NCBI GenBank assembly: GCA_020832305.1
Contig: JAFIEV010000050.1
Location: 1 to 64,000 of the forward strand
From: Cyclobacteriaceae bacterium
GTDB lineage: Bacteria; Bacteroidota; Bacteroidia; Cytophagales; Cyclobacteriaceae
DNA length: 64,000 nucleotides
Direction: 5' to 3'
In this document: positions 49,931 to 54,623 of the stretch, in pieces
Layout: each line of letters starts with the position of its first letter
How positions within the stretch are numbered: the first letter of the stretch is position 1
The notes under the pieces: generated by a model
What the model was told of the DNA's origin: nothing
The model's input: only the letters and a program-made list of their open reading frames with translations
The model's database searches: none
Program-made: the position numbers and the translations under genes

Positions 49931-50114
49931 GTCAAAAATCTTATTTATGAGTCAAGAATAGGTTCAAATGCTCCAAAAATAATTAAAAAAGCATTAAAAC
50001 CTACCATAAAATCAAGTTTTGGCAGACTTAACCCCCAGTCAGAAACTTATTTTTTTTATGCTAACCGTTCCATGCCGCACTGCGTGCAAAACAATTAAAA
50101 TTAATTTATTTTTA

Positions 50115-50126
50115 ATTAGTCTAAAT
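50115..50126. promoter_or_regulatory. Upstream operator of the heme operon
   Basis: ATTAGTCTAAAT contains the palindromic core TTAG-T-CTAA and covers the -33 region of the heme operon promoter. The core repeats at 50156-50170. Confidence 0.55.
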
Positions 50127-50138
50127 AATAATGATGCG

Positions 50139-50146
50139 TATATTTG
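50139..50146 (+). promoter_or_regulatory. -7 element of the heme operon
   Basis: TATATTTG is a full TAnnTTTG match between the two operators. Transcription would start near 50152, so the lipoprotein gene must begin at 50179 and not at the earlier ATG at 50131. Confidence 0.6.
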
Positions 50147-50155
50147 CGCTATGCT

Positions 50156-50170
50156 TAATTAGACTAATTA
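50156..50170. promoter_or_regulatory. Downstream operator of the heme operon
   Basis: A perfect 15-base palindrome, TAATTAG-A-CTAATTA, lies across the expected transcription start. Its centre is 43 bases from that of the upstream operator, about four helical turns. The TTAGNCTAA core resembles iron-responsive DtxR/IdeR-type boxes more than the classic Fur box. Confidence 0.6.
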
Positions 50171-50178
50171 TAAATTAT

Positions 50179-51039
50179 ATGGATAGACTCAGATCAATCA
50201 TAGGGATATTTTTGTTAGCTGTCATTATCTCCTGCCAACCGGTTAAGGACAACCGACAGGAAGAAACAGAAGATTTGCGGATCATCAGCATAGGTGGCGC
50301 CATTTCAGAAACCATATCTGCCCTGGGCCTGGAGCACAACATTATCGCTATTGACCAAACCAGCACCTACCCTCCTGCCCTCTCAGAAAAGGTTCAGCTT
50401 GGATTCAGAAACAGCATATCGGCAGAATCGATACTGGCGCTGAATGCTGATATCATCATTGCAGGCAAGGAAAATATTGAAAGCACTTTGGTGGAATCGC
50501 TCAGGCAAATGGGACAGGAAGTTTATGTGATTGAACAAAACTTCTCTCTCACAGGCAGCCATGCTTTGATAGCTGAACTCGGCAAATTGCTGGGAAGACA
50601 GGAGAAAGCTTATGCATTGCGTGAAGCGCTACAGGAATCTATGGATGCCATTAGCCCTATCGAAAACAAACCCAGAGCGCTGTTTATCTATGCAAGGGGG
50701 AAAGGTGCCATGCAGGTATCGGGCCATGGCACATCAGCCCATGCCTTTATGGAAATCAGCGGCTTTGAAAATGCCATGCAAAGCATCAGCCAGTTTAAGC
50801 CACTCACGCCCGAAGCCCTGATAGCCGCAGATCCAGATGTGCTTATATTTTTTGAAAGTGGGTGGCAAAGCCTTGGCGGTGCAGACGGCATTATGGAAAT
50901 TCCGGGCATCGCGCAGACCAAAGCAGGCAAAACCAGAAATTTTGTGACCATGGATGGTTTAAAGATGCTGAGTTTTAGCAGCCGTTTGCCCGAAGCAATC
51001 CTGGAGCTAAGAAATAAATACAATAATAACCTGCAGTAA
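50179..51039 (+). CDS. hmuT: Hemin ABC transporter substrate-binding lipoprotein
   Basis: From the ATG at 50179 this is a 286-residue lipoprotein with Cys19 (AVIISC). The rest is a class III binding protein with two lobes (LRIISIGGAISETISALGLE, ALNADIIIAGKEN, ALIAADPDVLIFF). HmuT holds heme in the periplasm and hands it to the permease. The next genes are a permease, an ATPase and a heme-handling protein, which fixes the identification. An upstream ATG at 50131 lies inside the promoter, as shown by the -7 element. The operon probably responds to iron through the two operators. Confidence 0.88.
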   Translation: MDRLRSIIGIFLLAVIISCQPVKDNRQEETEDLRIISIGGAISETISALGLEHNIIAIDQTSTYPPALSEKVQLGFRNSISAESILALNADIIIAGKENIESTLVESLRQMGQEVYVIEQNFSLTGSHALIAELGKLLGRQEKAYALREALQESMDAISPIENKPRALFIYARGKGAMQVSGHGTSAHAFMEISGFENAMQSISQFKPLTPEALIAADPDVLIFFESGWQSLGGADGIMEIPGIAQTKAGKTRNFVTMDGLKMLSFSSRLPEAILELRNKYNNNLQ

Positions 51040-51043
51040 ATAA

Positions 51044-52093
51044 ATGCAAACCGGCTCAGGATTTTTGCGGCAATCGCCCTTGGTATGGTATGGGTTTTTT
51101 ATCATCATTACCCTCCTGGCAATGGTGTATTCTTTACTTACAGGGGTGATCAAAATCCAAACAGGCCATCTGTTTGAGTTGATTGCTTCGATCTGGAATA
51201 CAGATGCCGCTACCGGTAAAGAAGCCCTGATTCTATGGAACCTCCGTATGCCCAGGGCTGTGCTCAGTCTGAGTGTAGGGGCAGCGCTGGCAGTTTCCGG
51301 CGCTTCGATGCAGGGCATATTCAGGAATCCATTGGTTGAACCCGGTCTCGTTGGAATCAGTGCAGGATCTGCGCTGGCAGCTGCCTGTGTTTTGGTATTT
51401 GTGTTTCCTGTCATGGGTGATGTATCACCTGCAACCAGTTCACTAATACTACCCCTATCCGCATTTGCCGGCGGACTTACCAGCACCTTGATCATCTATT
51501 ACATAGGAAGAAATGAAAGTATAGCCATTCTCATCCTTGCGGGAGTTGCCATTAATGCTTTATGCGGTGCACTTATCGGATGGGTCATTTACTATGCCGA
51601 CGACAGCGCCCTAAGGAGTTTTACCTTCTGGAGTCTGGGAGATCTGAGCGGCGCCAACTGGAAATCCTTCCTCATCGCATCGCCCTTTATCTGGCTTCCG
51701 GTCTTGTATTTATGTCGGCAACACCGCGATCTCGATATGCTTAGCCTGGGCGACAGGCAGGCATTTCACGCGGGTATACAGGTAGAATCTGTCAAGAAGA
51801 GAAATATCATGGCGGTAGCTATGGCCGTCGGTGCCTCCGTTTCCCTGAGTGGTGCCATTGGATTTATCGGGTTGGTGGTGCCACACATGATCAGAATGAT
51901 GTTTGGGCCCTCTCATAAAAATCTGATGATACTATCTGTATTTGTCGGCGGCAGCCTTATGATGCTGGCAGATACCTTTAGCAGAACCTGGGTGCAACCG
52001 GCTGAATTACCGGTGGGAATCGTAACGGCTATGATTGGCTCACCATTTTTTATATATCTCATTTTCAATACTAAAAACAAAAAGCTGTTATAA
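51044..52093 (+). CDS. hmuU: Heme ABC transporter permease (FecCD type)
   Basis: The 349-residue protein has about ten membrane helices. It carries FecCD motifs: RMPRAVLSLSVGAALAVSGA, GIFRNPLVEPGLVGISAGSA, and SLSGAIGFIGLVVPHMIRMM with the coupling helix for the ATPase. It should carry heme or iron chelate across the inner membrane. It starts four bases after hmuT and ends two bases before hmuV. Confidence 0.92.
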   Translation: MQTGSGFLRQSPLVWYGFFIIITLLAMVYSLLTGVIKIQTGHLFELIASIWNTDAATGKEALILWNLRMPRAVLSLSVGAALAVSGASMQGIFRNPLVEPGLVGISAGSALAAACVLVFVFPVMGDVSPATSSLILPLSAFAGGLTSTLIIYYIGRNESIAILILAGVAINALCGALIGWVIYYADDSALRSFTFWSLGDLSGANWKSFLIASPFIWLPVLYLCRQHRDLDMLSLGDRQAFHAGIQVESVKKRNIMAVAMAVGASVSLSGAIGFIGLVVPHMIRMMFGPSHKNLMILSVFVGGSLMMLADTFSRTWVQPAELPVGIVTAMIGSPFFIYLIFNTKNKKLL

Positions 52094-52095
52094 AA

Positions 52096-52968
52096 ATGGT
52101 ACTGTCAGCCCATGAGATATGCGTAACTGCAGGTAAAAAAACGCTACTGCAAAAAATCAACCTGGAGGTAAAGCAGGGTGAGTTCTGGATGATTGCCGGA
52201 TGCAATGGCGCCGGAAAAAGTACCTTCCTGAAAACGCTGGCTGGTGAAATTACACCCTCAAGTGGTACTGTCCTCCTTAAAGGTTCAGATCTGAAAAGAA
52301 TGGATGCCAATACGATGGCCAGACACCGATCGGTATTATCACAGCAAAATTATATGCAGTTTCCCTTCACTGCGCGGCAGATTATGGCTATGGGAACGGG
52401 GCCCTCAGACCCTGGTCCTAAAAAAACAGAAACCCTCATCGATCAGTTTGCTCATGAACTCGAAATCACAGCCCTGCTTGACAGACCTTACCCTGTATTA
52501 TCGGGCGGTGAGCAGCAAAGGGTTCAATTAGGCAGGGTGTTCATTCAATCTTCAATTTGTGAAGATGCGCCACTTATACTGCTTGACGAACCTACATCAG
52601 CGCTTGATATTGCACAACAACACCTGGTTATGAATATCCTGCTCGAAAAATTGTCAAAGGGCTATACCCTTATTGCCGTGGTACATGATCTCAACCTGGC
52701 TGCCCGTTATGCTTCTCATATTTTGTTTTTGAAAAACGGCGAGTGTGTAGCCAAAGGCCCGGTTGAAAAAATGATATGTAGCGCCATTATTGAAAAAACA
52801 TATCAGCAACCGGTTTCGGTCTGGAAACACCCTACCCTGGGTTGTCCCATGATTGTAGCCGAGGCCTGCGACCGATTTAATCCATTATGCAAAAACCATA
52901 AAATAATTAATAATCAACAATTAAAATCTGTATACCATGATACATCCAACCCTGGACAATCTCAGTAA
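52096..52968 (+). CDS. hmuV: Heme ABC transporter ATPase
   Basis: The 290-residue ATPase has Walker A GCNGAGKST, Q-loop SQQNYMQFPF, signature LSGGEQQRVQLGR, Walker B LILLDEPTSALD and the switch His in VVHDLN. It powers the HmuU permease. The C-terminal 40 residues extend past the family's normal end and overlap the start of the next gene by 32 bases. That tail may be a by-product of the overlap rather than functional. Confidence 0.92.
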   Translation: MVLSAHEICVTAGKKTLLQKINLEVKQGEFWMIAGCNGAGKSTFLKTLAGEITPSSGTVLLKGSDLKRMDANTMARHRSVLSQQNYMQFPFTARQIMAMGTGPSDPGPKKTETLIDQFAHELEITALLDRPYPVLSGGEQQRVQLGRVFIQSSICEDAPLILLDEPTSALDIAQQHLVMNILLEKLSKGYTLIAVVHDLNLAARYASHILFLKNGECVAKGPVEKMICSAIIEKTYQQPVSVWKHPTLGCPMIVAEACDRFNPLCKNHKIINNQQLKSVYHDTSNPGQSQ

Positions 52969-53992
52969 AGATCAACTTACCTCATCCTGGGAAAATCTTC
53001 GTCGTGAAAACCCAAAACTCAGGATACGAGATGCCGCTACCCGGCTTGGCGTAAGCGAAGCTATCCTTTTAAGTACCCGAGCAGGCCAGGGAGTCACCCG
53101 CCTGGATGCCAATCCTATTGAACTGTTTCAGGACATTAAAGCCATGGGACGCATCATGTCGCTGACCCGTAATGATGCCTGCGTACTGGAGCATCACGGC
53201 ACCTTACAGAAAATTGATATTATCGGTAGTATGCCCAATGCCATGGCAACGGTAATTGGTCCCATAGAGTTAAGGGTATTTTTCAAAAGCTGGCAATTCT
53301 TCTTCGCCGTTGAAGACCCAAAACCTACCGGTGGTTTTCTGCGCTCCATCCAGGTATTTGACCGGGCCGGTGATGCCATTATCAAAATGTACCTCCAGGA
53401 CGACGAAAAATTGCCTGTTTTCCAAGACATCCTTGAAAAATACAAGCATCCAGATCAACAACAGAGTATAGAAACCGAAGTCTATCCTCAAGAAGTATAC
53501 AGTAATGTAATTGATGAGACAGCTTTTCAACAGGCGTGGTTACAAATGAAAGACACCCATGATTTCTTTGGAATGCTCAAAGATTTCGGAATTTCCAGGA
53601 AGCATGCGCTTGAAATCGCCCCCGAAGGCGCTGCCCGGAAAATTGATCCCGCTTCAATAAAATCCATGCTTGAGACCGCTGCCAATACTAAACTGCCCAT
53701 AATGATCTTTGCCGGCAACCGGGGCAATATCCAAATCCATCAGGGTAAGGTGCGTACCATCAGAGAACTTGGATCATGGCTGAATGTGCTTGACCCCGAC
53801 TTTAACATGCATCTCAATATGGCAGAAATAACAGAAGCCTGGATCGTAAAAAAGTCAACTTCTGACGGCCTCGTAAGCAGCATTGAGCTTTTTAATGCTA
53901 AACATGAGCTGATGGCGCAGTTCTTTGGCCTTAGAAAACCGGGAATTCCGGAAAAAGAAGCCTGGAGAGAAATTCTGGAAACGCTTAACTAA
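52937..53992 (+). CDS. hmuS: Hemin-degrading/heme-trafficking protein HmuS
   Basis: The 351-residue protein matches the HemS/ChuS family in length and has its two repeated domains, at about 30-165 and 205-340. The second repeat shows MIFAGNRGNIQIHQGKVRTI and WLNVLDPDFNMHLNMAEI, and the first DACVLEHHGTLQKIDI. Such proteins take heme from the importer and either store it or open its ring to free iron. It starts inside the end of hmuV. A regulator gene follows after four bases. Confidence 0.9.
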   Translation: MIHPTLDNLSKDQLTSSWENLRRENPKLRIRDAATRLGVSEAILLSTRAGQGVTRLDANPIELFQDIKAMGRIMSLTRNDACVLEHHGTLQKIDIIGSMPNAMATVIGPIELRVFFKSWQFFFAVEDPKPTGGFLRSIQVFDRAGDAIIKMYLQDDEKLPVFQDILEKYKHPDQQQSIETEVYPQEVYSNVIDETAFQQAWLQMKDTHDFFGMLKDFGISRKHALEIAPEGAARKIDPASIKSMLETAANTKLPIMIFAGNRGNIQIHQGKVRTIRELGSWLNVLDPDFNMHLNMAEITEAWIVKKSTSDGLVSSIELFNAKHELMAQFFGLRKPGIPEKEAWREILETLN

Positions 53993-53996
53993 TACC

Positions 53997-54623
53997 ATGA
54001 AACCAGAAAGGGTACTTCAGGCAGATACAGAAACGCTGGCCCTCGAAGGCTTGCGCTACCTCATTCGTACTACATCTGATGTGCCCTTTTTGCCTCCCAT
54101 TAAAAATTTTGAAGATTTGATAAATGAAATAAGAGATCATCCAAATACCCTGGTAATGGCTGATCCATTTAACCTGGGTATGGATAAAAAGCAAATAGTA
54201 GACCTGATCAAATGTGCAAAGAACTGTCATTGTCAACTGGCTTTTATCACCAAGCACACGCGTTTATGTTGCAATGCCGAAATTATTGATATGGGATTAG
54301 ATGCCTGCATCGATAAGGGACAAGATGAAGAAAGCATAAAAGAAGCTATTCGACGTGTACTGGAAGGCAATACATATTATTCACATACACAAAGGGGCAA
54401 ATCGGCATCTGCCAATCAGGATGAAGATGATCTTACAGATAGAGAGCACGAAATCCTGATCCTTATTGCAAGGGGTTATTCGAGTTTAGAAATAGCAGAT
54501 AATTTATGCCTGAGTAATCATACAGTTAACTCCTATCGAAAAAGCCTGGTACGCAAACTGAAAGCCCGTACCCAGGCAGAATTGATCATCCAGGCCATTC
54601 GCATGGGATGGATACACCTATAG
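53997..54623 (+). CDS. LuxR-family regulator with cysteine-rich receiver-like domain
   Basis: From the ATG at 53997 this is a 208-residue regulator. The C-terminal LuxR helix-turn-helix is clear (LTDREHEILILIARGYSSLE, SNHTVNSYRKSLVRKLKART). The N-terminal domain is receiver-like: an Asp in LVMADPFNL, Thr in FITKHT and Lys in CIDKGQ sit near the expected places, but the fold is shorter. It has six cysteines within residues 73-104 (KCAKNCHCQ, RLCCN, DAC). That cluster and its place at the end of a heme operon suggest it may sense heme, iron or redox state; this is inference. An upstream start at 53925 would overlap hmuS. Confidence 0.8.
   Translation: MKPERVLQADTETLALEGLRYLIRTTSDVPFLPPIKNFEDLINEIRDHPNTLVMADPFNLGMDKKQIVDLIKCAKNCHCQLAFITKHTRLCCNAEIIDMGLDACIDKGQDEESIKEAIRRVLEGNTYYSHTQRGKSASANQDEDDLTDREHEILILIARGYSSLEIADNLCLSNHTVNSYRKSLVRKLKARTQAELIIQAIRMGWIHL

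Follow-up and report, generated by a model that had tools for sequence, protein, structure and literature searches.

The heme-uptake genes in the window (the whole 64,000-nt stretch of DNA that was analyzed) are followed by a gene for a NarL-type protein, whose model combines a receiver fold with a LuxR/GerE helix-turn-helix (HTH). We judge the chances to be evenly balanced that this protein, a pseudo-receiver, ends a probably iron-repressed hmuTUVS-luxR operon and acts as a non-canonical feedback regulator of heme/iron uptake. Following up six clustered cysteines of the protein led, at the level of sequence comparison, to regulators that are widespread, linked to iron, and marked by a different pair of invariant cysteines.

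The genes hmuT, hmuU, hmuV, and hemS follow one another in the same direction, either overlapping slightly or separated by short gaps (Table 1), and the ORF of the regulator (208 aa) opens with an ATG at 53997, 4 nt beyond the hemS stop codon (53990–53992). The original prediction of a cysteine-rich LuxR-type regulator directly after hmuS/hemS was confirmed by this 4-nt gap and by the GerE HTH described below. The gene following the regulator is PMT_2 glycosyltransferase-like, and no histidine kinase gene was found beside the regulator gene. HemS was present in 27 of 98 genomes, the window genome included. In the stretches covered around these 27 hmu loci, hemS was directly followed by a NarL-type gene in the window and at none of the other 26; such a gene was located at most 1.6 kb upstream of hmuT in two loci (L090 and L092) and approximately 5 kb upstream in another (L091). 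The listed start of hmuT (50131) is probably too early, the ATG at 50179 with a lipoprotein-like signal (MDRLRSIIGIFLLAVIISC, by eye) being likelier, and the second Fur-like box falls between these two positions.

Table 1. Features of the heme-uptake locus in the window, with the basis of each assignment.
Feature	Position	Strand	Basis
Fur-like box 1, TTTTTAATTAGTCTAAAT	50109..50126	+	Best matrix score in the 64-kb window
Fur-like box 2, AATTAGACTAATTATAAA on the + strand	50157..50174	-	Second-best matrix score in the 64-kb window
hmuT, substrate-binding lipoprotein	50131..51039	+	Pfam (Peripla_BP_2), sequence
hmuU, FecCD-type permease	51044..52093	+	Pfam
hmuV, heme ABC transporter ATPase	52096..52968	+	NCBIfam PRK13548 above its cutoff; Pfam ABC ATPase
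hemS/hmuS, HemS and ChuX_HutX domains	52937..53992	+	Pfam
NarL/LuxR-type regulator, putative pseudo-receiver and GerE HTH	53997..54623	+	ORF, Pfam, AlphaFold2, Cys statistics
Codons of the six-Cys stretch, residues 73–104	54213..54308	+	Sequence

The Pfam search of the window protein detected GerE (PF00196, 55.5 bits) at residues 145–198 and no Response_reg domain, and NCBIfam models of the NarL type matched it with scores far under their cut-offs. An AlphaFold2 model, for which the input was an alignment of the window protein and 34 Cys-pair relatives (A3), had a mean pLDDT of 91 and a pTM of 0.67, and showed the receiver order of strands and helices, followed by a low-confidence, disordered linker (residues 133–142) and the HTH. 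The top Foldseek matches of this model in the PDB were full-length NarL-family regulators, with TM scores of approximately 0.5 across both domains. Heme-responsive regulators of the NarL type are known, HrrA being one of them. ChrA (4yn8), which was ranked eighth by Foldseek, resembles the window protein in being NarL-type and heme-linked; it belongs to a heme-sensing two-component system by its entry title, whereas the window gene has no adjacent kinase gene.

In the active site of the window protein, D10, D56, T85, and K107 were present, and the second residue of the acidic pair (DD2) was Thr11, which leaves the NarL/FixJ five-residue set (DD, D, T/S, K) incomplete at a non-acidic DD2. Pseudo-receivers and aspartate-less receivers are proteins in which one of the five active-site residues is missing, according to the available text of a 2025 perspective (PMC12632262), and because Thr11 fails this five-residue criterion, we classified the window protein as a pseudo-receiver, DD2 being the residue concerned. 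Its sequence combines an intact HTH with a receiver fold that lacks the second metal-binding acid. As D56, T85, and K107 are kept, phosphorylation of the protein is possible. A plain phosphorylated regulator, the case that the original prediction had set against its own proposal, was thus weakened by Thr11 but retains these three residues in its favor.

Used as a query, the window protein retrieved regulators adjoining other hmu operons. The 13 regulators that were aligned (A2) had two invariant cysteines in common, the first two residues past the conserved Lys (K-x-C) and the second at the receiver–linker junction (F-x-C). When named genomes were scanned using A2, the best 80 loci of the matches listed were nearly all from Bacteroidota by title, and two MAGs among them carried proteobacterial names; the scan used two patterns, one of which contains the first cysteine, so that the first cysteine was partly selected and the second was not. 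A pattern-free profile search of 98 relatives gave 21 matches above 200 bits in 20 genomes (L213–L232 and L252), all of which have both cysteines. For the phylum sample, nine of 296 genomes passed E 1e-55, with five matches carrying the pair and four being ordinary regulators, and the two groups overlap in profile score (183 bits for the ordinary L286 and 175 bits for the Cys-pair L285).

The non-redundant set, limited to proteins for which 350 bp or more of upstream sequence was available, numbered 166, of which 109 had the Cys pair (77 from the best 80 loci of the matches listed in the pattern scan, 32 from other sources) and 57 did not. DD2 was absent in 108 of the 109 Cys-pair proteins, the exception (L257) looking like an alignment shift, and was Asp in 56 of the 57 no-pair proteins, the remaining one being the window protein. 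The phospho-Asp was kept in 107 of the 109, and a third cysteine was located in the linker in 51 of 77 Cys-pair proteins. No NCBIfam model reached its cut-off for the five members compared, and none of the PDB entries with a match at E 1e-10 was named as a protein of the Cys-pair type, VraR/LiaR being the closest. Among the literature matches listed, which held few subscription papers, no title or abstract opening concerned Cys-pair NarL regulators/Fur boxes.

The gene neighbors connect the Cys-pair regulators with iron. Iron genes (hmuT/U/hemS, FeoB, ferritin, HmuY, imelysin, and PepSY_TM; reference genes Pfam-checked) were located at most five genes away from 11 of the 21 profile-only Cys-pair regulators vs none of the 19 ordinary ones (Fisher p 0.0002), where the rows are related and formal p-values consequently too small, and the contrast with the controls carries the weight. 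This count was made by hand on contigs several of which were short, with TonB receptors and lone ABC ATPases excluded, and 19 of the 20 controls were used, as no regulator ORF was recovered for L265.

A second connection was found in the promoters. A palindrome close to TTTRGAATTARTCTAAAT upstream of 12 members scored 177 vs at most 132 in eight shuffled sets (width 18), a value inflated by kinship because three of the 12 promoters have identical sites; two promoters (L122 and L144) had no good site. The matrix from five sites identified a box before hmuT in 22 of the 27 hmu loci, with at most one of 100 shuffles as good, and in five of nine further regulator-adjacent hmu loci, two of them near-identical. 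Most of the box-bearing hmuT promoters had no adjacent Cys-pair-type regulator. No convincing box was seen before hmuT in L069, L071, L072, L082, and L091. A reverse matrix was made of ten hmuT sites, all at loci where no regulator is adjacent; these sites were found via the first matrix and are thus not fully independent. It identified the box in 84 of the 109 Cys-pair genes (0.7 expected from shuffles) vs one of the 57 no-pair genes, in a scan that began 400 bp upstream and ended 60 bp into the gene. For the profile-only set, the box was present within 400 bp upstream of 15 of the 21 Cys-pair genes vs one of the 19 ordinary genes.

The single no-pair carrier of the box (L267 6965–7630, also L237; G051) is a DD-type NarL regulator with Glu in place of D56. 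It is encoded beside a TonB receptor, approximately 5 kb from hmu, and was sister to the Cys-pair family in the careful tree described below (88/87, not starred). The Flavobacteriales-type Cys-pair members below 200 bits (L134–L212) had the box in 22 of 35 cases, and their neighbors mostly match none of the iron reference genes.

Both boxes of the window lie just before hmuT, at the head of the operon. They were singled out by matrix scores only; a plain pattern scan of the window (at most three mismatches) found 16 boxes vs 18.9 expected, with no excess. No box was found directly upstream of the regulator gene itself, where the best site scored 6.8 bits. Fur is the likely binder of the box, which resembles the R. 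anatipestifer Fur box ATTTATTTTTATTCTAAAT given in the accessible part of PMC5976166; this published box scores 16.5 bits on the matrix. DtxR-type and Fur-type proteins are both encoded in the window genome. A DtxR/IdeR site was considered and dropped because the published Riemerella box fits the matrix and because the IdeR consensus, as it appears in the accessible part of PMC8464063, differs from the box. It is also unlikely that the box is the regulators' own operator, since hmuT promoters without such a regulator adjacent have it too.

If Fur with iron represses the operon, the regulator would be made alongside the heme importer when iron is short. It would then bind DNA and feed back on genes for heme/iron uptake or storage. 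Its input would be a change at the receiver other than ordinary Asp phosphorylation, most plausibly thiol chemistry. Our favored guess for the Cys-pair family is Fur-controlled expression combined with a non-phospho thiol input, and we extend it to the window protein with less confidence. The proposal that the protein adjusts heme uptake, made in the original prediction, appears plausible given the two Fur-like boxes at the operon head and the presence of Cys-pair regulators in iron loci. A feedback role is favored by the 4-nt spacing, the two boxes, the loss of DD2, and the receiver and HTH fold, and by the counts of boxes and iron neighbors among the Cys-pair relatives. It is opposed by the missing Cys pair, the conflicting trees, the neutral log-odds, the canonical best BLAST relatives, and the position after hemS that the other 26 hmu loci do not have.

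The Cys-pair columns of the window protein hold Gln and Ser, both cysteines of the pair being absent. A quick tree of 118 rows placed the protein near the Cys-pair family, whereas in a careful tree of 66 rows it was sister to the canonical L009-type regulators (93/88, not starred). The AU test rejected neither placement (p 0.779 with the ordinary group and 0.608 with the Cys-pair family), and the branch of the window protein is very long (2.2 to 3.4 changes per column). The log-odds between the groups were neutral for the window protein (−0.8; receiver −10.6 and HTH +9.8), with values of at least 71 for Cys-pair members and below −53 for ordinary rows except L237 (+15). Its best BLAST relatives were the canonical L009-type regulators, which have the same short linker, and a HisKA_3/HATPase_c kinase gene adjoined all eight of the L009-type loci that were checked by Pfam (8 of 14). 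Membership in the Cys-pair family is suggested by the loss of DD2 and by the iron-operon niche, and the L009 type by the missing pair, the short linker, and C104. We did not accept the window protein as a plain Cys-pair member, as the pair is absent, the trees conflict, and C104 and the short linker are those of the kinase-paired type. It is not filed as a member of the family but may work like one.

The same evidence bears on whether the window protein is instead an ordinary NarL-type response regulator, which is phosphorylated, arose by divergence from the L009 type, and ends the heme operon by chance. We consider this unlikely. DD2 is Thr in the window protein vs Asp in the 56 other no-pair regulators, its gene neighbors are hemS and the PMT_2 gene and no histidine kinase, its receiver was not detected by Pfam, and its grouping with the Cys-pair family was not rejected either. 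These points have to be set against the sister position in the careful tree, the short linker, the cysteine at the C104 column (14 of 14 L009-type vs none of 102 other rows), the kinase genes at the L009-type loci, and the presence of D56, T85, and K107, all of which agree with an L009-type origin.

The six cysteines (C73, C77, C79, C91, C92, and C104) lie within 32 residues of the receiver-like domain, as had been predicted, and a seventh (C171) lies inside the HTH. This density is rare: at least six cysteines in any 32-residue stretch were found in four of 1816 distinct ORFs, including the window ORF (background, ORFs of at least 120 aa from loci of at least 7 kb, with the window locus included). 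The premise that receivers are usually cysteine-poor also held, as the 146 other NarL-like proteins had at most four cysteines in the first 125 aa. Neither a CxxC nor a Cys-Pro motif occurs in residues 73–104.

No orthologue of the window protein was found by protein searches of four overlapping genome sets, namely 59 relatives (cut-off of E 1e-25), 295 genomes of the family (1e-11), 390 of the order (1e-23), and 395 of the phylum (1e-23), and one GTDB pattern scan found no relative of it. The best other match in the orthologue search had an E of 1e-25 and 29% identity; the matches listed were up to 34% identical across most of the protein and up to 40% identical in its C-terminal half. The conservation of the cysteines was determined in an alignment of 116 relatives (77 Cys-pair and 39 other NarL-like proteins), from which some near-identical rows and all but eight of the low-scoring Flavobacteriales-type rows were dropped. 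None of the 116 had a cysteine at column 73, 77, 79, or 91, and the C73 column was a gap in every one of them. A cysteine was present at the C92 column in one relative and at the C104 column in 14, which are exactly the L009-type regulators. The set is thus not conserved in homologues, a finding that the original prediction had named as contrary to its proposal; it was rejected as a conserved metal site, and its suggested service as a heme or Fe-S site gained no support from ligand cysteines missing at four positions in all relatives. The six cysteines appear to be lineage-specific and may represent either a thiol input of the window protein or tolerated drift.

Neutral drift of the cysteines in a degenerating or freely evolving regulator is an explanation to which we give little credence: the extremely long branch, the lack of an orthologue in the samples searched, and the lost DD2 would fit it, but the frame is intact, the GerE match is strong (55.5 bits), the predicted fold is confident, and the operon linkage is tight. 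Least credible is a heme, iron-sulfur, or metal sensor with the six cysteines as ligands, for which the rare density and the heme operon context speak, but which is opposed by the column counts, by the absence of CxxC and Cys-Pro motifs, and by the element order of the model, which would put C73, C77, and C79 at one end of the domain and C91 and C92 near the other.

A non-canonical feedback regulator of iron uptake, which is the reading we prefer for the window protein, can be compared with RitR of Streptococcus pneumoniae. RitR is a response-regulator relic that represses iron transport via one linker cysteine, a mechanism considered possibly common by its authors in the available text (PMC5965902). 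From the same text, RitR is like the Cys-pair family in its degenerate receiver, its link to iron uptake, and a cysteine near the receiver–linker junction, but it is a CovR derivative in which Asn takes the place of the phospho-Asp and a single cysteine, Cys128, is used. The Cys-pair family, in contrast, is NarL-type with a GerE HTH, keeps the Asp in 107 of 109 members, has lost DD2, and has a second invariant cysteine. The window protein differs from RitR in having Ser at the linker-junction column and no linker-region redox cysteine there. Two Cys-substituted receivers beside iron/heme uptake operons are described in the accessible portion of PMC4395418; in these, Cys replaces the phospho-Asp, which the window protein keeps. 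MliR of Bizionia argentinensis is an additional non-Fur iron regulator in Bacteroidota and, unlike the window protein, is MerR-like and without cysteines, as stated in the portion of PMC9478572 available.

The switching of pseudo-receivers on and off was termed a mystery in the accessible text of the 2025 perspective (PMC12632262). Two invariant cysteines, the near-universal loss of one acid, and a Fur-like promoter signature would provide a concrete, testable input for such proteins. A broader proposal, which we put forward tentatively and with rather low confidence, is that iron control in Bacteroidota includes a second level, made up of Fur-repressed NarL-type pseudo-receivers that would sense thiol redox or Fe-S/iron status via the Cys pair in place of phosphorylation. 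The window protein would then either belong to them as a rewired member or have newly entered their niche, and would sense via its six cysteines. If true, the Cys-pair pseudo-receivers would be a convergent counterpart of RitR. Iron control in Bacteroidota, for which the literature, in the parts available, describes little beyond Fur and MliR, would gain a further regulatory layer from them.

Two gene blocks recurred around the Cys-pair regulators. In L117, L148, L149, and L183, the regulator was accompanied by FeoB, a small protein (with a weak DUF6686 match in L117), and ferritin, and opposite this block lay a gene of 467–468 aa, which is a fumarase by Pfam in L148. In L115, L125, and L144, the regulator was accompanied by imelysin and di-haem oxidoreductase genes, to which a TonB receptor and a PepSY_TM protein were added in L115 and L144.
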